Assembly (NCBI GenBank): GCA_029100885.1
Contig: JAQXPY010000130.1
Span: forward strand, 1-37,525
Source: Clostridiales bacterium
GTDB lineage: Bacteria; Bacillota; Clostridia; Lachnospirales; Lachnospiraceae
Length of the DNA stretch: 37,525 nt
Direction: 5' to 3'
Of the stretch, positions 142 to 37,147 are shown piece after piece; positions within the stretch are counted from its first letter, which is position 1; each line of letters starts with the position of its first letter. The notes below the pieces were generated by a model. The model ran no database searches. It saw nothing but the letters and a program-made list of their open reading frames with translations, and was not told the origin of the DNA. The position numbers were made by a program, and so were the translations under genes.

Positions 142-246
142 GGTAACGGTTCAGCACGGACTGAAGGACAGACGGCAGAGACATGAGCAAGAAGCGAACG
201 ACAGTGAGCGGATTTCGAATGTGATGCCGTCTGCCGAACTGTTGCC
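142..246 (+). repeat. Structured dispersed repeat, copy E1
   Basis: Closing stem ggtaacggttcagca/tgccgaactgttgcc and inner stem cagacggca/tgccgtctg; its reverse complement aligns with 27679-27836 (shared ATTCG[a/c]AATCCGCTC, TTGCTCATGT, TGCCGTCTG, GTGCTGAA). Confidence 0.7.
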
Positions 247-4539: not shown

Positions 4540-4649
4540 ATTTTATAAGAACCCTGTTTTAATCTAATTGGCAGGATCGGACTCCTGGCCTGACCTGCTG
4601 TGCTTCCAAATTGTAATCCGGCGCAGCGCTCCGGGGATCGGATCATAAG

Positions 4650-4719
4650 CCGTATGTGAAAAATATGTAAACATATGTAAACATATGTAAGCATATGAAA
4701 TCATATTTTTTACATACGG
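4650..4719. repeat. 18-bp inverted repeat enclosing 10-bp tandem ACATATGT-type repeats
   Basis: ccgtatgtgaaaaatatg (4650-4667) / catattttttacatacgg (4702-4719), one mismatch; acatatgtaa at 4671 and 4681 plus degenerate copies at 4661 and 4691. Confidence 0.9.
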
Positions 4720-4758
4720 TTCTTATTATATCTAATGGTTTCCATAAAAAATAATGTG

Positions 4759-21090: not shown

Positions 21091-21176
21091 GTTGTTTACA
21101 ACTTTTTCTTGAATCATCAAAAAAAATGATGAAAAAAGGCATAAAAACCCTTGCGCTTCGGAAAGTTGTTTACAAC
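21090..21176 (+). promoter_or_regulatory. Two identical operator-like sites GTTGTttACAAC (21091-21102 and 21165-21176)
   Basis: Palindromic, 74 bp apart, fit the GT(N)nAC pattern of GntR/FadR-type operators; TATAAT at 21202-21207. Confidence 0.65.
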
Positions 21177-22578: not shown

Positions 22579-22694
22579 TACCGGCACTAACGGCGGTATT
22601 CGTTCTGAAGTACCGTGCTGTTAAAAGGTTTATGGGTAAGCAGGCAGATCCCTACCCGGGGTCTGTTAAGCAATATATTAATCAGGAGGGAAAA

Positions 22695-23771
22695 ATGAAA
22701 AAGAGAATTTTTGCAGGCATCATGGCTGCTGCCATGGTTGCATCACTGACTGCATGCGGCGGCGGCTCATCCAGCACAGCTTCAACAACAGCTGCTCCGG
22801 CAGAGACAAAGGCTGAGGCTGCAGCAGAGACAGAGGCTCCGGCAGAGTCTGCTGATCAGGTGGTTACACTTAAGCTCGGACATATCCAGAACGAGCAGGA
22901 TATCTGGCATCTTTCGGCAGAGGTTCTTGCTGAGAAGGCTAAGGAGTATTCAAACGGAACTATCAATATCGAGATCTATCCTAACTCCACACTCGGCGGA
23001 GACCGTGACCTGGCAGAGGGAATGCAGATGGGTACTGTAGATATGGCTCTTATCGCAGGTGTTCTTTCAAACTTCGATGAGTCTATCTCACTCCTTGAGA
23101 TCCCTTATCTCTTCCACAGCAACGAAGAGTTCGAGAAGATCGTTTACGGACCTTGCGGAGAAGAGATCGCTGCAAACGTACTTGAGAATTCAGGCATCAA
23201 GATCCTTGATTGGTGGGAGAGAGGTCCTCGTCTCATTACATCAAGCAGACCTATCAACAGCGTTGAGGATATGAAGGGTCTTAAGATCCGTCTTCCTGAG
23301 ATCAAGGCAATGCAGGAGGTATTCACAGCATGGGGTGCAGCTCCTACAACAATGAGCTGGTCTGAGGTTTATCCAAGCCTTCAGCAGGGCGTTATCGAGG
23401 CTCAGGAGAACCCTATTCCGTTCTTCTACTCAGGCTCGATCTTCGAGGTTAACAAGTACATCGCTAACACAGAGCATAAGTATGAGTATGTATGCATCAC
23501 AATTGCCGGCGATTCCTGGGACAAGCTGAGCGCAGCACAGCAGGAAGCTCTTATGAAGGCAAGCGCAGAGGCTACAGAGTATCACAACAGCCATGTAAGC
23601 GATATCGCTGCTGAGGATCTCAAGGACATGGTAGACAACCATGGCGTAACAGTTACAGATCCTGATACAACAGGCTTCATCGCAATAGCTGAGGAAGTTG
23701 CTCCTAAGTATGCAGAGAGCATCGGATATCTTGATCTCTACAACAAGATTCAGGCTGAATTAGGCCGTTAA
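22695..23771 (+). CDS. TRAP transporter substrate-binding lipoprotein (DctP family)
   Basis: Lipobox SLTAC; RLPEIKAMQEVFTAWGAAPTTMSWSEVYPSLQQGVIEAQENP; SD caggaggg; ATG 22695 preferred over 22632. Confidence 0.95.
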   Translation: MKKRIFAGIMAAAMVASLTACGGGSSSTASTTAAPAETKAEAAAETEAPAESADQVVTLKLGHIQNEQDIWHLSAEVLAEKAKEYSNGTINIEIYPNSTLGGDRDLAEGMQMGTVDMALIAGVLSNFDESISLLEIPYLFHSNEEFEKIVYGPCGEEIAANVLENSGIKILDWWERGPRLITSSRPINSVEDMKGLKIRLPEIKAMQEVFTAWGAAPTTMSWSEVYPSLQQGVIEAQENPIPFFYSGSIFEVNKYIANTEHKYEYVCITIAGDSWDKLSAAQQEALMKASAEATEYHNSHVSDIAAEDLKDMVDNHGVTVTDPDTTGFIAIAEEVAPKYAESIGYLDLYNKIQAELGR

Positions 23772-23788
23772 TCAAAGCTTTAGCTCAC

Positions 23789-23825
23789 AGAGGCGGAGAT
23801 GGGGCTATCCTGTCCCGCCTCTTTA
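23789..23825 (+). terminator. Hairpin between dctP and dctQ (attenuating or mRNA-stabilising)
   Basis: agaggcgg ... ccgcctct followed by a weak T tract. Confidence 0.55.
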
Positions 23826-23886
23826 TATAGACGGCAGTCATAAGGAAAGAAGGGTTTCGGACTGCCGGGCTGTCAGGAGGTTCTTA

Positions 23887-24363
23887 ATGAAAAAAGTTGA
23901 AGGAGCTATTCTGAAGGTATTAGGATGGTTTATGGCGCTGCTGATATTTGCCATGATGGTGGATATTTTCGCTGCGGTACTGTCAAGATACATTTTCCGT
24001 TTCTCTATTCCGTTTGCCGAGGAGCTGGGAAGGTATCTGTTTGTATGGATCACCTTTACAGGAATGGCAAGATGTGTAGCGGACGAAAAGCACGTAGCTT
24101 TGGATCTTATTTCACATGTTCTTAAGGGGCCTGTCAAGAAGGGCTGGAAGCTGGCTGTATATGCCATTACAGCATTTTTCTTTGCGGCTCTTACACGCTC
24201 GGGCTATGCTCTCTGCCTGGTTGGACTTAAGCAGAAGAGCCCGACCATGAGGATTCCGATGCAGTATATGTATATGATAATACCTATCTGCGGAGTTCTC
24301 AGTCTGTTCTTTATTGTGATGAGAGTTATTGATCTTTTGAGAAAGGAGAATGAGGAATCATGA
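23887..24363 (+). CDS. TRAP transporter small permease (DctQ family)
   Basis: Four hydrophobic segments, AEELGRYLFVWITFTGMARCVADEKHV; next to dctP and dctM. Confidence 0.93.
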   Translation: MKKVEGAILKVLGWFMALLIFAMMVDIFAAVLSRYIFRFSIPFAEELGRYLFVWITFTGMARCVADEKHVALDLISHVLKGPVKKGWKLAVYAITAFFFAALTRSGYALCLVGLKQKSPTMRIPMQYMYMIIPICGVLSLFFIVMRVIDLLRKENEES

Positions 24364-25622
24364 TAGGCATCTTATTATTCACAATATTCTTGATTTTCCT
24401 TTTCTTCGGTCTTCCTGTAGGCTTTGCCCTCGGTATCGCAAGCCTTGGAGGTATCGCATACGGAAGCTACCCTATAAGCGTTATGGCACAGCGGTTCTTC
24501 ACGGCTGTTGACTCATTCCCGCTTATGGCTATTCCGCTTTTCATGCTGGCCGGAGCTCTTATGAGTCACGGAGGCATTACAAAGAGAATTATTGACTTCG
24601 CGCTCTGCTTTGTAGGTCATATCAAGGGCGGCCTTGCAATGGTAGTGGCGATCACAGGTATCATCATGGGAGGTATTTCCGGTTCGGGAGTTGCCGATGC
24701 AGCGGCTATCGGTGCGATCATGGTTCCGGAGATGAGCAAGAGAAAATATGACAGAGCCTTTTCGGGTGCGCTTTGTGCATGCTGCGGCTCTATCGGACTC
24801 ATCATTCCTCCGTCAATTGCCATCATTATTTTTGCATGTACAGCCAATGTATCGATCGGTGACCTGTTTATGGCAGCATATGCTCCGGGCATCTGCATCG
24901 GTCTGGGCTTCCTTTTATACTGCTATATCATCGCCAGGATCAAGAATTATCCTAATGAGGAAAAGATCCAGGCAAAAGAAACGATCAGAAGGTTCAAGGA
25001 TGCTATCTGGGCGCTGATCATGCCGCTGATCATCGTAGTCGGCATCAGAGGCGGTATTTTCACCGCTACAGAGGGAGGAGCCGTTATATCGATATACGGT
25101 CTTCTTGTCGGCATGTTCATATACAAGGATATCAAGATAAAGGATCTTCCGGCTATCCTGCTGGAGGCAGCAGAGAGCACAGCTACTATCGGAACGATCA
25201 TCTGTGCAACTACTCTTTTCAGCTGGCTGCTTACCAGTGAGCAGATTCCGGCCAAGATCACAACATGGCTTATCAGCCTTACGGACAATAAGTTCCTGCT
25301 GCTTTTCCTTATAAATGTCCTGCTGCTTATTACAGGTATGTTTATCGACAGCGGCCCGGCGATCATGCTTCTGGCGCCTATCCTGTGCCCGGTAGCCACA
25401 TCTCTCGGTGTGAATCTTGTTCAGTTCGGTCTTGTGATGGTAATGAACCTTACTATCGGACTTCTTACTCCTCCGGTAGGAACGGCTATGTATGTAGGCT
25501 CTAATGTCTCAGGTGTTCCGATCAAGGACATTAGCCGAGCCTTGCTTCCGTTTATAGGAATCATGTTCGCGGCTCTTATGCTTGTGACATATGTTCCTGC
25601 ATTCACAAGCTGGGCTTATTGA
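24360..25622 (+). CDS. TRAP transporter large permease (DctM family)
   Basis: FVGHIKGGLAMVVAITGIIMGGISGSGVADAAAIGAIMVPEM; ATGA overlap with dctQ. Confidence 0.96.
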   Translation: MIGILLFTIFLIFLFFGLPVGFALGIASLGGIAYGSYPISVMAQRFFTAVDSFPLMAIPLFMLAGALMSHGGITKRIIDFALCFVGHIKGGLAMVVAITGIIMGGISGSGVADAAAIGAIMVPEMSKRKYDRAFSGALCACCGSIGLIIPPSIAIIIFACTANVSIGDLFMAAYAPGICIGLGFLLYCYIIARIKNYPNEEKIQAKETIRRFKDAIWALIMPLIIVVGIRGGIFTATEGGAVISIYGLLVGMFIYKDIKIKDLPAILLEAAESTATIGTIICATTLFSWLLTSEQIPAKITTWLISLTDNKFLLLFLINVLLLITGMFIDSGPAIMLLAPILCPVATSLGVNLVQFGLVMVMNLTIGLLTPPVGTAMYVGSNVSGVPIKDISRALLPFIGIMFAALMLVTYVPAFTSWAY

Positions 25623-25706: not shown

Positions 25707-26483
25707 ATGGATAACAAGGAAGAACGCTACGGACTGATACTTGATAAGGTCATCAGCATGATCTATGACTTGAATATCAGAAGCGGAGACAAGATGTTTT
25801 CCGAAAACAGGCTGGCAAAAGCACTAAATGTTTCGAGAGCAAATGTCAGAGAGATATACAGCGCATTGAATATCCTCGGCATTCTTGAGAGCAGAAGGGG
25901 AGAAGGGACATTTTTCAGAGGTGCGGACAACAGTATTATCTTCAAGATACTTATGCTCGTTATATATGATGATTCGGCTGACGTCAGCGAGATCATGGAG
26001 GTAAGAAAGATCATTGAGATAGGAATCGCCGAGAAGGCAGCTGTAAACAGAAGTCAGGAGGATGTCAGAAAGCTTAAGAAATGTATAAACGACATGGAAA
26101 ACTGCTCTGACGGAAACCGGCTCAGCGAACTGGACAATGAGCTGCATTCTATTATAGGCAGAGCCTGCGGAAACACGCTTCTGTCGAATATGTCCGAGAT
26201 CATTTCCAGCCTTGTCATCAGATCGATCAGGGAACACTGGAACTATATTCTGTCGGATAAGAAAAGAGATACAAAGCAGATCACCTTTGAACAGCACAAG
26301 GAGCTGGCGGAAGCAATAATTCACAAAAAGCCGTACATTGCAAGAGTTGTTGCGCAGGAGCACCTTGAGTTCGTTTCTAACAGTCTGGAAAGGTATAAAA
26401 AGGAGTATTCCGAGCATCTGTTGTTGATATCCGATTCAAAAGATGAGAGGCCAAGGTTAAAATACCGGCAGTATCATTCCTGA
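25707..26483 (+). CDS. GntR family transcriptional regulator, FCD (FadR-type) effector domain
   Basis: N-terminal wHTH (FSENRLAKALNVSRANVREIYSALNILGILESRRGEGTFF), C-terminal all-helical FCD-like domain. Confidence 0.9.
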   Translation: MDNKEERYGLILDKVISMIYDLNIRSGDKMFSENRLAKALNVSRANVREIYSALNILGILESRRGEGTFFRGADNSIIFKILMLVIYDDSADVSEIMEVRKIIEIGIAEKAAVNRSQEDVRKLKKCINDMENCSDGNRLSELDNELHSIIGRACGNTLLSNMSEIISSLVIRSIREHWNYILSDKKRDTKQITFEQHKELAEAIIHKKPYIARVVAQEHLEFVSNSLERYKKEYSEHLLLISDSKDERPRLKYRQYHS

Positions 26484-26528: not shown

Positions 26529-26557
26529 TTGACAAAAAGTTGTCAGAATAATAAAAT
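26529..26557 (+). promoter_or_regulatory. Promoter TTGACA-17-TAAAAT overlapped by inverted repeat tgacaa-aaag-ttgtca
   Basis: Direct reading; -35 26529-26534, -10 26552-26557, inverted repeat 26530-26545. Confidence 0.65.
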
Positions 26558-26674: not shown

Positions 26675-27616
26675 ATGAAGATTACTATGATGGGCGCCGG
26701 CGCCATGGGAGGCATGATCGGCGGCAGACTTGCAGCGGCAGGCAACGACGTATGGCTTGTTGATACCTGGGCGGAGCATGTTGACAGTATGAAGCAGAAT
26801 GGTCTCATTCTTGATACCAGAGAGGGAAGACAGATACTTAAGGTCAATGCTACGACAAATGTTTCAGAGGTCTATGAAGCCGACGGCTATATGGAGCTTG
26901 TAATAATCTTTGTCAATACCAACTTCACGGATCAGATCACAAGGGATGCTCTGGCAGTGATAGGACCGGACACATATGTGCTGACGGTTCAGAACGGTGT
27001 AGGAAATGCCGATATCATTGCAAGATATGTTAAGAAGGACAGAATCATCCTCGGAACAACTCTTGCTGCGGGTGTCGTTGAGGGACCGGGACATGTAAGA
27101 GATTCCGGAACAAACACATTTACACAGATAATGCCTATGGAGGGACCGGTAACGCCGGTGGTGGAGAAGATCTGCGCCACTTTGAGCGACGCCGGACTTC
27201 AGACTGAGGCAACACCTGAAGCCGAGACAGCCATCTGGCGCAAGCTGTGCGTCAACTGCTGCACCTGCGGCATCGGAACAGTAACAAGACTTACCTGCGG
27301 ACAGGTCTGTGAAGAGCCGGACGGTGCTCCGCTGGTTCGTGAGATCATCAGAGAGGTATGCGCCGTTGCCAACGCAAAGGGGCTTAAGCTTGATTACGAG
27401 ACGGAGGTCAGTCATTTCTTTGAGGTGTATACACCGAGTACCCATTATGCGTCAATGGTTCAGAATGCAAAGAAGCATATCAGGACCGAGGCGGAGACGA
27501 TTATGGGAGCGGTAGTGCATGAAGGAGAGAGACTGGGAATTCCTGTTCCGTACAACACTACTATCTATCATCTTGTGAGAATGATCCAGGATCATTACGA
27601 GGATCAGATGTATTGA
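26675..27616 (+). CDS. Ketopantoate reductase (PanE/ApbA) family oxidoreductase
   Basis: MGAGAMGGMIGGRLAAAGNDVWLVDTW dinucleotide fold; TVQNGVGN; WRKLCVNC; SD gggggt. Confidence 0.88.
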   Translation: MKITMMGAGAMGGMIGGRLAAAGNDVWLVDTWAEHVDSMKQNGLILDTREGRQILKVNATTNVSEVYEADGYMELVIIFVNTNFTDQITRDALAVIGPDTYVLTVQNGVGNADIIARYVKKDRIILGTTLAAGVVEGPGHVRDSGTNTFTQIMPMEGPVTPVVEKICATLSDAGLQTEATPEAETAIWRKLCVNCCTCGIGTVTRLTCGQVCEEPDGAPLVREIIREVCAVANAKGLKLDYETEVSHFFEVYTPSTHYASMVQNAKKHIRTEAETIMGAVVHEGERLGIPVPYNTTIYHLVRMIQDHYEDQMY

Positions 27617-27637
27617 TCGGAACATTTCCGTTTTGGA

Positions 27638-27688
27638 ATAAACTATTTAAATACACTATTTAAATAAACTATTAAATAAACTATTCAG
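27638..27688 (+). repeat. Tandem ~13-bp repeats ataaactatttaa-type leading into the E2 end
   Basis: 27638-27650, 27651-27663, 27664-27675, then 27676 onward merges with the E2 left arm. Confidence 0.8.
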
Positions 27689-27836
27689 CACGGCAAAAGG
27701 CCATTCGCAATCCGCTCGTGGTTTTTCGCTGATTGCTCATGTTTTTGCCGTCTGCTCCTCAGACCAATCCTTGGTACAAACAGGAAAAAATGTAAACACT
27801 TTTTCCTGATTGTACCAGGTCCGGTGCTGAATAGTT
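27679..27836 (-). repeat. Structured dispersed repeat, copy E2, with extra internal hairpin
   Basis: Closing stem aactattcagcac/gtgctgaatagtt (13 bp perfect); inner cggcaaaa/tttttgccg; extra hairpin ggtacaa-a-caggaaaaa / tttttcctg-a-ttgtacc (27773-27816). Confidence 0.8.
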
Positions 27837-27890
27837 AAGTTGTTTTTCAGATAACAGAGTAAATTTTTATATATTTAACAGGGGGTAATT

Positions 27891-29597
27891 ATGGCACATT
27901 TCAGAAGTGCGGACCTTATGCAGCTTTCCTATAAGGGCTATTTTAAGGCAATGGGATACTCAGATGACGAGCTTTCAGAGAGAAAGCCGAGGATCGGTAT
28001 CGCAAACTCATGGAATCAGCTTGTTCCTGGTCACTACAATCTCAACCAGGTAGCTGAGTATGTTAAGAGGGGCATCTATGAGGCAGGCGGTACAGCATGC
28101 GAGTTTGGTGTAATGGCATGCTGCGACGGCATTGCTCAGGGACATGTAGGTATGAGCTACATTCTTCCTTCAAGAGAGATCATCTGCGACTCTGTTGAGC
28201 TTATGGTTCAGGCTCATCAGCTGGATGCGGTGGTTCTGCTTGCTTCCTGCGACAAGATCGTTCCGGGCATGATCATGGCAGCAGCAAGACTTAACGTTCC
28301 GGCTATCCTTATCAACGGCGGTCCTATGCTCAGCGGTATTGAGTTTGACGGAAGAAAGTCAGACGGAACAGCACCGGATGAGGCTATGGGTATGCTTTCG
28401 GCAGGCAAGATCACACAGGAAGATCTGGATACACTTGTTGATGCATGCTGCCCTGGCTGCGGATCGTGCTCATTCTTCGGAACAGCAAATACAATGGGAT
28501 GCGCTATCGAGGCTCTCGGTATGTCACTCTCAGGCAGCGCTGTTATTCCGGCAGTATATTCAGACAGACTCAGATATGCATTCAAGACAGGTCAGAAGAT
28601 CGTTGAGCTGACAATGAAGGACATTCGTCCTCGCGATATCATCACAAAGCAGTCCATCAGAAACTCCATTATCGCTACAATGGCAGTCTGCGGATCAACA
28701 AACGCATGTCTCCATCTTCCGGCTATAGCTATGGAAGCAGGCATCAAGGATTGGGATGTTATTGACGAGTTCGACAAGCTCAACAAGAAGACTCCTCAGC
28801 TTGCACGTATTTATCCGGCATCCGACTGGTCGCTTGAGGACTTCTATAAGGCAGGCGGTATGCAGAGAGTAATGCGCAACCTCGGCGATCTTCTTGATAC
28901 AAGCGTTATGACAGTTGACTGCTGCACTCTCGGAGAGGCTCTTTCAAAGGCTAAGTTCATCTATCCTGAAAATCCTGACCTCATTAAGACAAGAGAGAAT
29001 CCGTTTGCACCTACAGGCGGAATTGCAGTGCTCAGAGGAAATATCTGTCCGGATACAGGTATCACAAAGCCGGGTGCATATGATCCTTGCATGTATGACT
29101 TCACAGGTACGGCTATCTGCTTTGACTGTGAGGAGGATGCTGAGGAGGCTATCCTTGCGGGTAAGGTTAAGCCGGGTCATGTTGTGGTAGTAAGATATGA
29201 GGGTCCTAAGGGCGGTCCTGGTATGAGAGAGATGTACAAGGCTATGAAGTATCTCTATGGACAGGGCCTCAACAAGTGTACAGCACTTATCACAGACGGA
29301 CGTTTCTCCGGAACAAACAACGGATGCTTTGTTGGTCATATTTCTCCTGAGGCAGCTGACGGCGGTCCTCTGGCTCTGCTTAAGGACGGAGATACTATCC
29401 ACCTTGATGTTATGAACGGCATCCTGGAGGCAGTTGATGTTACTCCTGAGGAGTTTGCAGAGAGAAAGAAGAACTGGAAGAGGCCTGCAAAGGACATCCC
29501 TAACGGATATCTCAGGCTCTATTCAAAGGTTGCTTCTTCAGCAGCTAAGGGTGCTGTGATCGACGAGGAACAGATCTACTCAAAGGCAGAGGGCTGA
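27891..29597 (+). CDS. IlvD/Edd family dehydratase (dihydroxy-acid or sugar-acid dehydratase)
   Basis: ASCDKIVPGMIMAAARL, CCPGCGSCSFFGTANTM, DGRFSGTNNGCFVGHISPEAADGGPL; SD aggggg. Confidence 0.88.
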   Translation: MAHFRSADLMQLSYKGYFKAMGYSDDELSERKPRIGIANSWNQLVPGHYNLNQVAEYVKRGIYEAGGTACEFGVMACCDGIAQGHVGMSYILPSREIICDSVELMVQAHQLDAVVLLASCDKIVPGMIMAAARLNVPAILINGGPMLSGIEFDGRKSDGTAPDEAMGMLSAGKITQEDLDTLVDACCPGCGSCSFFGTANTMGCAIEALGMSLSGSAVIPAVYSDRLRYAFKTGQKIVELTMKDIRPRDIITKQSIRNSIIATMAVCGSTNACLHLPAIAMEAGIKDWDVIDEFDKLNKKTPQLARIYPASDWSLEDFYKAGGMQRVMRNLGDLLDTSVMTVDCCTLGEALSKAKFIYPENPDLIKTRENPFAPTGGIAVLRGNICPDTGITKPGAYDPCMYDFTGTAICFDCEEDAEEAILAGKVKPGHVVVVRYEGPKGGPGMREMYKAMKYLYGQGLNKCTALITDGRFSGTNNGCFVGHISPEAADGGPLALLKDGDTIHLDVMNGILEAVDVTPEEFAERKKNWKRPAKDIPNGYLRLYSKVASSAAKGAVIDEEQIYSKAEG

Positions 29598-32001: not shown

Positions 32002-33078
32002 ATGCAGAAGGCATATCTTGTGTTAAGCAACGGAAGGATCTTTGAAGGAAAACGAATCGGCGCAGACAGGGATTCGATCGGAGAGGTCGTATTCACCACC
32101 GGTGTCGAGGGATATCTTGAGACATTGACAGATCCGAGCTATGCGGGGCAGATGATCGTTCAGACATTTCCTCTCATAGGAAATTACGGAGTCATAGAGG
32201 AGGATTTTGAGGGCGGAACCTTCGCCAGAGGATATATTGTAAGAGAGCTCTGTGATACACCGTCCAACTTCAGATGTCAATATACGCTGGAGGAGTTTCT
32301 TAAGAAGAAGGATATTCCCGGGATCGCCGGAATAGATACGAGAGAGCTTACCAGGATCATCAGAGAAAACGGCTGCATGAACGCGGCTATTCTGAGTGCG
32401 CCTCCTTCAGAGACCGATATGCAGAAAATAAACAGCTATAAGGTATCCGGAGTGGTGGAGGAGACCGGGATTCGGGAGAAGCAGGTTCTGCCGTCGGAGT
32501 GCGGGGAAAGCTTCAGAGTCACACTTATCGATTACGGTGCCAAGCGAAATATCGCCAGATCCCTCTGCAGGAGAGGCTGCTGCGTGACAGTTGTTCCTCA
32601 CACCATGACTGCAGAGGAAATACTTGCCGATGCACCTGACGGTGTAATGCTTTCGAACGGCCCGGGAGATCCGGCTGAAAATACCTTCTGCATAGAACAG
32701 ATAAAGAAGCTGATAGGAAAGCTGCCGATCTTCGGAATATGCCTCGGTCATCAGCTTACAGCCATTGCCATGGGCGGAAGCACAGTGAAGCTGAAATACG
32801 GTCATCACGGTGCAAATCAGCCTGTAAGAAGGCATGACGGCTCACGAACCTACATAACAAGTCAGAATCATAACTTTGCAGTGGTGTCTGACAGCCTTGC
32901 CGGGGTAGGAAAGGAAATATTTTCAAATGCCAATGACGGCAGCTGTGAGGGAATGGAATACCCCGGAAAAAAATGCTTTACCGTCCAGTTCCATCCCGAG
33001 GCCTGCGGAGGACCTAAGGATACGGAGTTTCTGTTTGACAGATTCATTGAGATGATGGAGGAAGAAAAAAATGCCTAA
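32002..33078 (+). CDS. carA: Carbamoyl-phosphate synthase small subunit
   Basis: FTTGVEGYLETLTDPSYAGQM, GICLGHQLTAIAMG, VQFHPEACGGPKDTEFLFDRF; SD gggggt. Confidence 0.96.
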   Translation: MQKAYLVLSNGRIFEGKRIGADRDSIGEVVFTTGVEGYLETLTDPSYAGQMIVQTFPLIGNYGVIEEDFEGGTFARGYIVRELCDTPSNFRCQYTLEEFLKKKDIPGIAGIDTRELTRIIRENGCMNAAILSAPPSETDMQKINSYKVSGVVEETGIREKQVLPSECGESFRVTLIDYGAKRNIARSLCRRGCCVTVVPHTMTAEEILADAPDGVMLSNGPGDPAENTFCIEQIKKLIGKLPIFGICLGHQLTAIAMGGSTVKLKYGHHGANQPVRRHDGSRTYITSQNHNFAVVSDSLAGVGKEIFSNANDGSCEGMEYPGKKCFTVQFHPEACGGPKDTEFLFDRFIEMMEEEKNA

Positions 33079-36000
33079 GGATAAAACGATCAGAAAGGTT
33101 TTGATGATAGGCTCAGGACCAATTATCATCGGACAGGCAGCGGAGTTTGATTATGCGGGAGCCCAGGCCTGCCGCGTACTCAGGGAGGAAGGAATAAACG
33201 TCGTCCTCGTCAACTCCAATCCGGCGACCATCATGACAGACAAGGATCTGGCAGATGAAATATATCTTGAGCCGCTCAATATGGAAACGGTGGAGCGTAT
33301 TATAGAAAAGGAGAGACCGGACGGAATACTTGCCGGTCTAGGAGGACAGACCGGTCTCACCATTGCAATGCAGCTGAAAAAATCCGGTGTTCTGGACAGA
33401 TATAATGTCAGACTGCTGGGCTCAGACATAGATGCTATCGAAAAGGCGGAGGACAGAGAGTTGTTCAAGGAGACGATGAATGCCATCGGTCAGCCTGTGG
33501 TTCCTTCCGATATAGCGGTCTCACCGGAGGAAGCCCTTGCCATTGCAGAAAGGATCGGTTACCCGGTAATAGTACGTCCCGCCTATACGCTCGGAGGAAG
33601 CGGAGGCGGAATCGCACAGAATGAGGATGAGCTCCGGGTGATAGCAGTAAACGGTCTGGATATGTCTCCGATCACCCAGGTCCTTATCGAAAAATGCATC
33701 TCGGGATGGAAGGAGATCGAGTTTGAGACCATGAGAGATGCATTGGGCAATGTCATCGCTGTCTGCTCGATGGAAAATCTCGATCCTGTTGGCATTCACA
33801 CGGGAGACTCGATAGTAACCGCTCCGGCACTGACCCTTTCGGACAAGGAATATCAGATGCTGAGGTCCGCATCACTCGATATGATCAGCGCACTGGGAAT
33901 AGTGGGAGGCTGCAACTGTCAGTTTGCGCTTGATCCGAATAGCTTTGAATATGCTGTAATAGAGGTGAATCCTCGAGTATCCAGATCCTCGGCTCTTGCC
34001 AGCAAGGCTACCGGATATCCTATAGCCAAGATCACCACAAAGATAGCTCTCGGCTATTCTCTTGATGAGATAATGAACGACATTACTAAAAAGACCTGCG
34101 CATGCTTTGAGCCTACGCTGGATTATGTTGTCGTAAAATTCCCAAAGTGGCCGTTTGACAAATTTATGGGCTCCAGCAGAAAGCTTGGCACTCAGATGAA
34201 GGCCACAGGAGAGGTAATGGCGATAGCCAACAGCTTTGAAATGGCTTTGATGAAGGCGGTCAGAGGCTCGGAGACAGGCTTCGATACGTTAAATGCTCCG
34301 CCGCTCAGTGATAAGCCTGTAATGGAGAGGGTGGCAGAGCAGAATGACCGCAGGATATTTACAATATTTGAGGCATTAAAGGCAGGACATACGCCGGAAG
34401 AGATCCATGAACTCACCCTGATAGACATGTTCTTCTTGAACAAGCTTAAGAAACTGGCGGATTTTGAGCTTGCCATAGAGGGAAGAGCTGAGGACAAAGC
34501 TGCCGGGGCACAGCTTACCGGTGAGGAGTATGAGCTGGGAAAGAGATATGGATATACGGATGCGGCTCTGTCAAGGCTCAGCGGTATTCCGCAGCCGCAG
34601 CTTCCGGGCAAGGCCTTCAGCTATAAGATGGTGGATACCTGCGGCGCCGAATTCGATGCGGCTACCCCGTATTTTTATTCCACGACGGATACGGAATGCG
34701 AGTCCCGCAAATTTACAAGGAGCAGCAAGGAAGTGGTAATGGTACTGGGCTCCGGACCTATCAGAATAGGTCAGGGAATAGAGTTCGATTACTCCTCCGT
34801 ACACTGTGTATGGACCCTGCAGCAGCTGGGTTATGATGTTGTCAGAGTCAACAACAATCCGGAAACCGTATCTACCGATTATGACACGGCGGACAGACTG
34901 TATTTCGAGGCTCTTACCCCTGAGGATGTTATGAACATCATCAATGTGGAAAAGCCTATCGGTGTTGTGGTGGCATTCGGCGGACAGACTGCCATCAAGC
35001 TGACTAATTATCTGGATTCCAGGGGGATCAGGATCCTCGGAACCAGCGCAGAGGGAATCGACACCGCCGAGGACAGGGAGAAGTTTGACAGGCTGCTTGA
35101 AAACTTCGGCATTACAAGGCCTAAGGGAATGGGCGTTAATTCGGTTCAGGAGGCCGTGGACGCGGCCGAAAAGCTGGGATATCCGGTGCTGCTTCGACCA
35201 AGCTACGTTATCGGCGGACAGAATATGACGATATCCTATGATGACGAGCATACCAGAAGGTACATGGAGACTATCTTAAGCGGCGGCATTGAAAATCCTG
35301 TACTGGTAGATAAATATATGCCGGGAACCGAGCTGGAGGTGGATGTTATCTCCGACGGTGAGGATGTACTTATTCCGGGAATAATGGAGCATATCGAGAG
35401 AGCGGGAGTACATTCGGGAGACTCCATTGCCGTATATCCACCGTACAATCTGAGTGATAAATTCCTGAAGATCATCTGCGAAAGCTCGGAAAAGCTGGCT
35501 CTGGCACTGGGAACAAGGGGACTTGTAAATATTCAGTATCTTATATATGACGGAAAGCTATATGTAATCGAGGTGAATCCAAGAGCCTCCAGAACAGTGC
35601 CTTACATCAGCAAGGTAACAAATGTTCCGATGGTCGATCTGGCCACAAGAGTCATGCTTGGAGCAAAGCTGAAGGATCTGGGATACGGAACCGGACTTTA
35701 CAGGACGCCGCCTTACTGCGCCGTAAAGGTTCCTGTATTCTCCTTTGAAAAGCTCACGGATGCCAACTCCATTCTCGGTCCGGAAATGAAATCCACCGGA
35801 GAGGTGCTGGGAATAGGCAAGACCATATCCGAGGCATTGTACAAGGGACTCATAGCGGCAGGCTTTACTGTTCCTCCGGCTGACAGCAGAACGAAGCCGG
35901 GAGTGCTGCTGTCCGTTGAAGCAAATGATTATCCGGAGATCATGGGAGTAGCAAAGAGATTTTACGATCTGGGCATGGAGCTGTATGCCACCTCCGGAAC

Positions 36001-37147
36001 TGCTAAGGTGATCAGGCAGATGGGCATTACGGTCAAGGCTGTGGAGAACGCCTCGGAGAGCGGAGATATTTACGACCTGATCGAGAACAAGCGTCTCAGT
36101 TATATAATCTATACCGGAACTGACAGGGACGAGAGGATAGGAAGCTATACGGCGCTCCACAGGAAGGCGATGGCGACAGGGATTCCTTGTCTGACAAGTC
36201 TGGACACCGCAGGAGCGCTGGCGAAGATGCTGGAAAGCCGATTCAGCATTTACAACACGGAGCTTGTTGATATAAACAGCATGCGCGAAGAGCATCTCAA
36301 GGTGCATTTCACAAAAATGCAGGCCGCAGGAAATGATTATATATTTATCGAGAACTTTGACGGCAGCATAACCTGCCCTGAGTCCCTCTGCGTTAATCTC
36401 TGCACACAGCACTATGGCATCGGAGCGGACGGAATAGTTCTCATAGAGAATTCAGAGCTCTGTGATGTATCCATCAGAACCTTCAACCGTGACGGAAGCA
36501 ACGGAGGAATGGCCGGAAACAACATGCGCTGCGTCGCAAAATACCTGTATGACAACGGCATAGTCGACAGCTCAAGGGAGACGGTGACCATCGAGATGTC
36601 AGGAAAGGCCCATGAACTGTATCTAAACTTCAGGGACGGAAAGGTAAGCTCGGTGACAGCGGATATGGGAAGCATCAGCTTTGAGGCAGATAAGGTTCCG
36701 GTAGTATTCAGGGACGGAAGTCCTAAGGTCATCAACAGACTGATAAGAAAGCTGGATGAGGATTTCAGGATCACTTGTCTTTCGGTGGGAAATCCGCATT
36801 GTGTTACCTTCTGCGACAACATAGATAATCTGGAGCTGGAGAAGCTGGGACCTTCCTTTGAATACGCGGGAATTTTCCCTGAGAGGGTCAATACCGAATT
36901 TGTAAGGGTGGTAAACAGAAATACCCTGCGAATGAGGGTATGGGAGCGAGGAAGCGGAGAGACTCTGGCCTGCGGAACAGGCGCCTGTGCCGCCGTGGCT
37001 GCCGCAGCCGTAAACGGATATTGTGACGAGGGAACCGATGTGACTGTAAAGGTACTCGGAGGAGACCTTGTTGTAAACTATACACCCGAGCGAGTCCTGC
37101 TGACAGGCTCCGTGGTCAAGGTATTCGAGGGAGAGTTTGAATACTGA
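33071..37147 (+). CDS. carB: Fusion: carbamoyl-phosphate synthase large subunit (CarB, ~1-1070) + diaminopimelate epimerase-like domain (DapF, ~1071-1358)
   Basis: CarB duplicated ATP-grasp domains and MGS-like domain ending DTAGALAKMLES; then KMQAAGNDYIFIE, YGIGADGIVLIE, GNPHCVTFC, ERGSGETLACGTGACAAVAAA of DapF, in one uninterrupted frame. Confidence 0.94.
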   Translation: MPKDKTIRKVLMIGSGPIIIGQAAEFDYAGAQACRVLREEGINVVLVNSNPATIMTDKDLADEIYLEPLNMETVERIIEKERPDGILAGLGGQTGLTIAMQLKKSGVLDRYNVRLLGSDIDAIEKAEDRELFKETMNAIGQPVVPSDIAVSPEEALAIAERIGYPVIVRPAYTLGGSGGGIAQNEDELRVIAVNGLDMSPITQVLIEKCISGWKEIEFETMRDALGNVIAVCSMENLDPVGIHTGDSIVTAPALTLSDKEYQMLRSASLDMISALGIVGGCNCQFALDPNSFEYAVIEVNPRVSRSSALASKATGYPIAKITTKIALGYSLDEIMNDITKKTCACFEPTLDYVVVKFPKWPFDKFMGSSRKLGTQMKATGEVMAIANSFEMALMKAVRGSETGFDTLNAPPLSDKPVMERVAEQNDRRIFTIFEALKAGHTPEEIHELTLIDMFFLNKLKKLADFELAIEGRAEDKAAGAQLTGEEYELGKRYGYTDAALSRLSGIPQPQLPGKAFSYKMVDTCGAEFDAATPYFYSTTDTECESRKFTRSSKEVVMVLGSGPIRIGQGIEFDYSSVHCVWTLQQLGYDVVRVNNNPETVSTDYDTADRLYFEALTPEDVMNIINVEKPIGVVVAFGGQTAIKLTNYLDSRGIRILGTSAEGIDTAEDREKFDRLLENFGITRPKGMGVNSVQEAVDAAEKLGYPVLLRPSYVIGGQNMTISYDDEHTRRYMETILSGGIENPVLVDKYMPGTELEVDVISDGEDVLIPGIMEHIERAGVHSGDSIAVYPPYNLSDKFLKIICESSEKLALALGTRGLVNIQYLIYDGKLYVIEVNPRASRTVPYISKVTNVPMVDLATRVMLGAKLKDLGYGTGLYRTPPYCAVKVPVFSFEKLTDANSILGPEMKSTGEVLGIGKTISEALYKGLIAAGFTVPPADSRTKPGVLLSVEANDYPEIMGVAKRFYDLGMELYATSGTAKVIRQMGITVKAVENASESGDIYDLIENKRLSYIIYTGTDRDERIGSYTALHRKAMATGIPCLTSLDTAGALAKMLESRFSIYNTELVDINSMREEHLKVHFTKMQAAGNDYIFIENFDGSITCPESLCVNLCTQHYGIGADGIVLIENSELCDVSIRTFNRDGSNGGMAGNNMRCVAKYLYDNGIVDSSRETVTIEMSGKAHELYLNFRDGKVSSVTADMGSISFEADKVPVVFRDGSPKVINRLIRKLDEDFRITCLSVGNPHCVTFCDNIDNLELEKLGPSFEYAGIFPERVNTEFVRVVNRNTLRMRVWERGSGETLACGTGACAAVAAAAVNGYCDEGTDVTVKVLGGDLVVNYTPERVLLTGSVVKVFEGEFEY

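Follow-up and report, generated by a model that had tools for sequence, protein, structure and literature searches.

The repeat element E2, which lies between a panE-like and an ilvD-like gene in the window (the whole stretch of DNA analysed, 37,525 nucleotides), is very probably a non-autonomous MITE of the IS66 type that was inserted between these two genes, whose interior is a conserved cloverleaf and whose long hairpin, P4, is the element's own. This reading is based on terminal repeats, target duplications and a matching IS66 transposon, all recognised by sequence, from which mobilisation in trans is inferred. Regulation of ilvD by E2, which the initial annotation had proposed because of an operator-like loop in a hairpin thought to be peculiar to this copy, is unsupported.

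Anatomy and Folding of E2

E2 is complete and occupies positions 27677..27838 (162 bp). It is assigned to the minus strand, which is antisense to ilvD, folds better and, in sister copies, is the strand on which the Clostridiales-1 fold is matched. The left terminal inverted repeat, TAAACTATTCAGCACG (27677..27692, plus strand; family consensus GTAACTATTCAGCACC), forms the 5' arm of the closing stem P1, and the right terminal inverted repeat (27823..27838, minus strand) forms the 3' arm. Within this stem the 13-bp pairing of AACTATTCAGCAC (27679-27691) with GTGCTGAATAGTT (27824-27836) is exact, as had been claimed, but the element is larger than the segment 27679-27836 to which it had been confined. 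P1 encloses hairpin P2 (GGCAAAAGGCCATTCGCAATC...GATTGCTCATGTTTTTGCC, 27692..27749), the short hairpin P3 (GTCTG-CTCCT-CAGAC, 27750..27764) and P4 (27769..27819), the last being the 16-bp "extra hairpin" of the initial annotation, which was indeed found and consists of 7 + 9 bp with a single A.A mismatch between them. The apex of P4 is TGTAAACA (27791-27798), where the family has TGCAAGCA; the sequence is present as first reported, although what was taken for a loop is mostly base-paired (TGT/ACA).

The fold of E2 is far beyond chance on both strands. The folding energy of the whole element is -68.6 kcal/mol on the plus strand (z -9.5 relative to shuffled sequences) and -75.3 kcal/mol on the minus strand (z -10.9), and P4 by itself has a folding z of -7.5. 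The P2 motif on the minus strand, AUGAGCA...UGCGAAU including a tandem GA/GA internal loop, is shared with the Rfam family RF01699 (Clostridiales-1 RNA).

E2 appears to be an old or disturbed insertion, since its own target duplication is unrecognisable (2/8 flank positions are equal) and four 13-bp repeats stand at its left end. The repeats are tandem copies of AATAAACTATTTA at 27637..27688 (plus strand), the last of which overlaps the left terminal repeat, and the outermost bases of E2 are degenerate (TAAAC/GTTAA). The array looks as if the tip of the E2 terminal repeat had been amplified.

Copies of the Element in the Host Genome

The host genome, G000, is a MAG of 1.96 Mb in 183 contigs that is 93% complete. 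A search of this genome places the E2-family element at more than 40 dispersed sites, which are mostly intergenic; relative to the element, the gene downstream is codirectional at some sites and opposed at others. Full-length copies have a common anatomy consisting of the ends GTAACTATTCAGCACC / GGTGCTGAATAGTTAC, P2 (ATTCGCAA...TTGCTCAT), P3 (GTCTG-CTCCT-CAGAC) and the long P4. All 20 full-length copies that were aligned possess P4, whatever their neighbour genes. An E2-specific hairpin is thus ruled out, and P4 is the family norm; the initial annotation had itself named the presence of the hairpin in all family copies regardless of neighbours as a finding that would count against its proposal, and the family alignment that it called for gave just this outcome.

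The other copy in the window, E1 (143..245, minus strand), is a shortened one that retains P1, P2 and P3 remnants without P4. It does match E2 internally (78% identity over 158-221), and the difference of about 50 bp between the two is real, but it had been read the wrong way round in that E1 has lost P4 rather than E2 having gained it. Tandem arrays of the left half of the element (end, P2 and P3, no P4) with a period of about 77-92 bp also occur, and left-half duplications or arrays of this kind are seen at L002/L014, L016/L022, L028, L032 and G000:C103:20-364. Several contigs of this genome terminate within element copies.

Evidence for Mobility

IS66 elements are characterised by inverted repeats that begin with GTAA and by an 8-bp direct repeat (PMC11946415). 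The terminal repeats of the E2 family are 16 bp long (GTAACTATTCAGCACC) and begin in this way. Among the copies in the host genome for which both flanks are available, 11/25 have 8-bp flanks that are equal at 6 or more of the 8 positions, compared with 0.55 on average and never more than 5 in 10,000 permutations; exact examples are AAGCCTTT/AAGCCTTT and TATGAATT/TATGAATT. The duplication is therefore a property of the family, though it is unrecognisable at E2 itself. Like other MITEs, E2 is short (162 bp) and multicopy and has no transposase ORF.

The same ends are found beyond the host genome. A perfect match to the 16-bp end is present in 8 of 299 family genomes, with 22 occurrences each in two other genera, and the reversed pattern used as a control gave zero matches. 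The full end-to-end pattern was found in 65 stretches of public Lachnospiraceae/Clostridiales MAGs, and the flanks of elements from other genera are equal at 6 or more of 8 positions in 37 of the 51 cases where both are available (25 are exact). A genome-wide search with the E2-type interior as the pattern returned 0 outside matches, because the interior diverges fast.

What identifies E2 as an IS66-type MITE is an intact-looking IS66 transposon of 1,796 bp with the same ends as the family and a perfect 8-bp duplication (CTATGGCA), located at positions 645-2440 of the viral contig L231. Its protein matches DDE_Tnp_IS66 (PF03050) with 135.8 bits. Of the viral-contig matches to the 16-mer, L231 alone contains an IS66 element, and most of the others seem to fall in unrelated coding sequence. 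A truncated IS66 start lies behind the same end in G079, as judged by similarity to the N-terminus of the L231 protein (it gives no Pfam match). No IS66 transposase (PF03050) was found in the 93% complete host MAG, and the family ends were not seen within the flanks examined of the IS66 genes that Pfam detects in G018, G079 and G123. The initial suggestion of a mobile or structured element is nevertheless well borne out by the more than 40 copies, the terminal inverted repeats, the 8-bp duplications, an empty site in a congener (see below) and the IS66 element with the same ends. In the mechanism that we propose, an IS66-family (tnpC-only) transposase supplied in trans would recognise the 16-bp GTAACTATTCAGCACC ends and insert the element with an 8-bp target duplication.

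Conservation of the Cloverleaf and Its Relation to Clostridiales-1 RNA

The interior of the element forms a conserved cloverleaf in which the ends provide the closing stem P1, followed by P2, P3 and P4, and which compensatory changes maintain. In 17 aligned copies, 20/59 pairs have changed on both sides, and the covariation score lies above all slid controls and all 500 shuffles (0/500 reach it). Fourteen representatives from other organisms show compensatory changes at 36/60 consensus pairs, and in 14/14 of these representative clusters the fold is a four-way junction from which three internal hairpins branch. Fifteen copies have a C-G pair at the P4 apex; in two others, one of them E2, the pair is T-A, and the apex tip of E2 reads TGT-AA-ACA in place of the family TGC-AA-GCA. 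Judged from the alignment, the E2 sequence TGTAAACA is a base-pair-preserving, compensated variant of the family apex TGCAAGCA.

Read on the strand antisense to ilvD, the cloverleaf appears to be akin to the core of Clostridiales-1 RNA. The RF01699 model gives full-length matches (model 1-166) at the element in 16/20 sister loci with scores up to 47.1 bits; all of the matches at these 16 loci are on the strand opposite to ilvD, and L010 was likewise matched. E2 itself scores 13.1 bits. None of the family copies reaches the gathering cut-off of 48 bits, so the family is regarded as related to RF01699 and is not filed as a member of it. The P2 motif is conserved residue by residue in the RF01699 alignment of L015, and E2 retains AUGAGCA/UGCGAAU in P2 while having GUUUAC where the conserved P4 apex is GCUUGC. 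The link between the element and RF01699 rests on the RF01699 model together with these shared motifs. Neither a search of canonical RF01699 copies with a model built from the elements of other genera (R1) nor a search of G101/G256-type elements with RF01699 gave a match, and the link is therefore limited to the genus of the window and a few relatives.

RF01699 is described in its published source only as a probable RNA that is non-cis-regulatory and occurs in Clostridiales and the human gut (PMC2864571). It is possible, though we consider it unlikely, that the element is in the first place an RNA gene of the Clostridiales-1 type, whose product acts in trans or in its own interest and is transcribed antisense to ilvD, with the IS66 ends as a mere vehicle. 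The confinement of the RF01699 matches to one strand is consistent with this explanation, as are the grading of RF01699 as a probable RNA (PMC2864571) and the conservation of the apex GCUUGC and of the tandem GA/GA motif, the latter being present in P2 on the opposite strand in about 10/14 clusters (by reading). The strand opposite to ilvD is also the more stable one in 20/20 of the host's own copies and in 13/14 of the other clusters, but the copies are related, so this strand test is not an independent one. Against an RNA gene are the RF01699 scores below the Rfam cut-off and the fact that no promoter or terminator was identified in E2.

RF01699 was matched in 83/150 Lachnospiraceae-family genomes, often with at least 10 copies per genome. 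Among 30 canonical copies (L241-L270), 16 have an exact repeat of the 5-bp left flank within 60 bp to the right, often directly behind the ACATCA end, compared by simple counting with 3.5 (maximum 11) in shuffles. This pattern is a lead rather than more, by which the canonical RF01699 family looks to be mobile as well, with different ends. One could then imagine Clostridiales-1 as the cloverleaf core of a mobile Lachnospiraceae superfamily that uses at least two unrelated types of transposon end (GTAAC of the IS66 type with an 8-bp duplication, and TGATACC...ACATCA with a duplication of about 5 bp) and whose RNA is selected on one strand to serve the spread or maintenance of the element. We advance this wider proposal tentatively, as a serious possibility that falls somewhat short of being probable.

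The ilvD Locus

The genes around E2 are all on the plus strand for GntR (25707..26483, a regulator with GntR and FCD domains), panE (26675..27616, a panE/ApbA-like gene) and ilvD (27891..29597, an ilvD/edd-family dehydratase, PF00920), and the order is TRAP transporter (22632-25622), GntR-FCD gene, panE-like gene, E2 and ilvD-like gene. The ilvD start is 54 bp from the closing stem and 52 bp from the end of E2, in agreement with the distance of about 55 bp given initially. Elsewhere in the window, a 1358-aa ORF (33071-37147) combines a carbamoyl-phosphate synthase large chain with a C-terminal diaminopimelate epimerase domain and is an apparent CarB-DapF fusion.

In the congener G004 panE likewise adjoins ilvD, the gap being 57 bp with no element compared with 274 bp here; the spacer at this empty site is alignable in part only. 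The element is also absent upstream of the ilvD orthologues of G010, G001 and G024, and of G015 over the 80 bp checked. A promoter, TTGACA-17-TAAAAT (11/12 matches to sigma-70), overlaps the palindrome TGACAA-AAAG-TTGTCA at 26529..26557 (plus strand), downstream of gntR and upstream of panE. Because this near-consensus promoter sits before panE, ilvD is probably transcribed through E2, and 26529 is the likely start of a panE-(E2)-ilvD transcript. No intrinsic terminator or convincing promoter was found between E2 and ilvD. A scan of the whole window with Rfam at the gathering threshold returned tRNA alone and no riboswitch or T-box leader. MicroRNA matches are dismissed as chance matches to a hairpin.

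A cis-acting role of E2 in the panE-ilvD transcript, whether as RNA leader, as attenuator or as a determinant of mRNA stability, is improbable. The element is very stable in the sense orientation and close to the ilvD start codon, and repeats of the bcr1 type are often found within UTRs and operons (PMC3446304), where an effect on mRNA stability has been discussed (PMC3446304). However, the sense strand is the less stable of the two, there is no U-tract terminator, the family has no orientation bias towards downstream genes, and no element is conserved beside ilvD in congeners. The most economical reading is that the insertion is tolerated in the spacer between the cistrons, where it may modestly affect mRNA stability. 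The MITE has come to lie between panE and ilvD, which adjoin without it in the congener, and is thus probably a passive passenger between the two cistrons of the transcript from 26529.

The P4 Apex, an Unlikely Operator

A second regulatory possibility is that E2 brought a DNA operator, so that the GntR protein would bind the apical TGTAAACA and control ilvD. Two observations led to this idea, namely the GntR-FCD gene 1.2 kb upstream and the occurrence of TGTAAACA in palindromic sites at 21091 and 21165 (minus strand, 21093-21100 and 21167-21174). The sequence is indeed common to P4 and these sites, but the E2 copy is without their TTG..CAA flanks (TTGTTTACAA). Nor is it supported that the hairpin delivers an operator to this gene in particular: the aligned full-length copies beside unrelated genes have P4 as well, and because TGTAAACA is the compensated apex of the family TGCAAGCA, it is no evidence of a GntR operator. 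No palindrome shared by E2 and the gntR or panE promoters was found, no site of this type lies at either promoter, and a different palindrome overlaps the panE promoter. On these grounds control of ilvD through the apex is very unlikely, and the palindrome at 26529-26557 is a better candidate operator for the adjacent GntR regulator. P4 is a component of the element and no switch acquired for ilvD.

At 21091-21102 and 21165-21176 the palindrome GTTGTTTACAAC stands in two identical copies at a distance of 74 bp, with a Lar_N/DUF362 gene and a TRAP transporter operon downstream. These sites are likely to be genuine operators that have nothing to do with E2. In the window TGTAAACA occurs 8 times (0.5 expected), part of the excess coming from a tandem repeat at 4660-4700. 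That region is included in a strong hairpin (4645-4725, z -9.6) upstream of a glgB-like gene, and the tandem ATATGTAAAC inside it accounts for two of the matches.

Comparison with Known Systems

A REP/BIME-type palindromic repeat moved by a RAYT (HUH) transposase, which E2 would resemble in being palindromic, intergenic and present in many copies, can hardly be entertained given the long terminal inverted repeats, the IS66 partner with the same ends, ends that begin with GTAA instead of the GTAG/CGTC REP tag (PMC3733652), and the 8-bp target duplications, which contradict it.

With E2 recognised as an IS66-type MITE, an explained mobile element takes the place of a regulatory account specific to one gene, and there is a handle on RF01699, an orphan Rfam family that has no assigned function and whose loci it would be misleading to annotate as independent sRNA genes. 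Repeats of the E2/RF01699 kind break assemblies. If selection does maintain the core as RNA whichever transposon ends it travels with, it would be a testable case of RNA serving mobile DNA. IS66 ends and MITEs are already known as kinds; as far as the literature without most subscription journals extends, no description was found of a conserved cloverleaf that has IS66 ends and is also akin to an orphan Rfam RNA.

E2 shares GTAA ends and the 8-bp duplication of its family with the IS66 family (tnpC-only, ISBst12-like) and its MITEs, and the 16-bp end is identical in L231 and G079. It differs from IS66 elements in its lack of coding capacity, its length of 162 bp, its conserved cloverleaf and the failure to find a transposase in its own genome. 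By description, E2 resembles bcr1-bcr3 of the Bacillus cereus group, which are MITE-like, high-copy intergenic repeats often transcribed in UTRs or operons (PMC3446304), although their host group is unrelated to that of E2. With RF01699 the family shares a closing stem with hairpins, the P4 apex GCUUGC, the P2 sequence AUGAGCA-GAAGC...GCGGA-UGCGAAU, and the full-length alignment of sister copies on a constant strand. The third hairpin of the E2 family is reduced and stands in a different order, and its scores are sub-threshold (at most 47.1, E2 13.1). Canonical RF01699 copies have the ends TGATACC...ACATCA and duplications of about 5 bp, whereas the E2 family has the ends of IS66.
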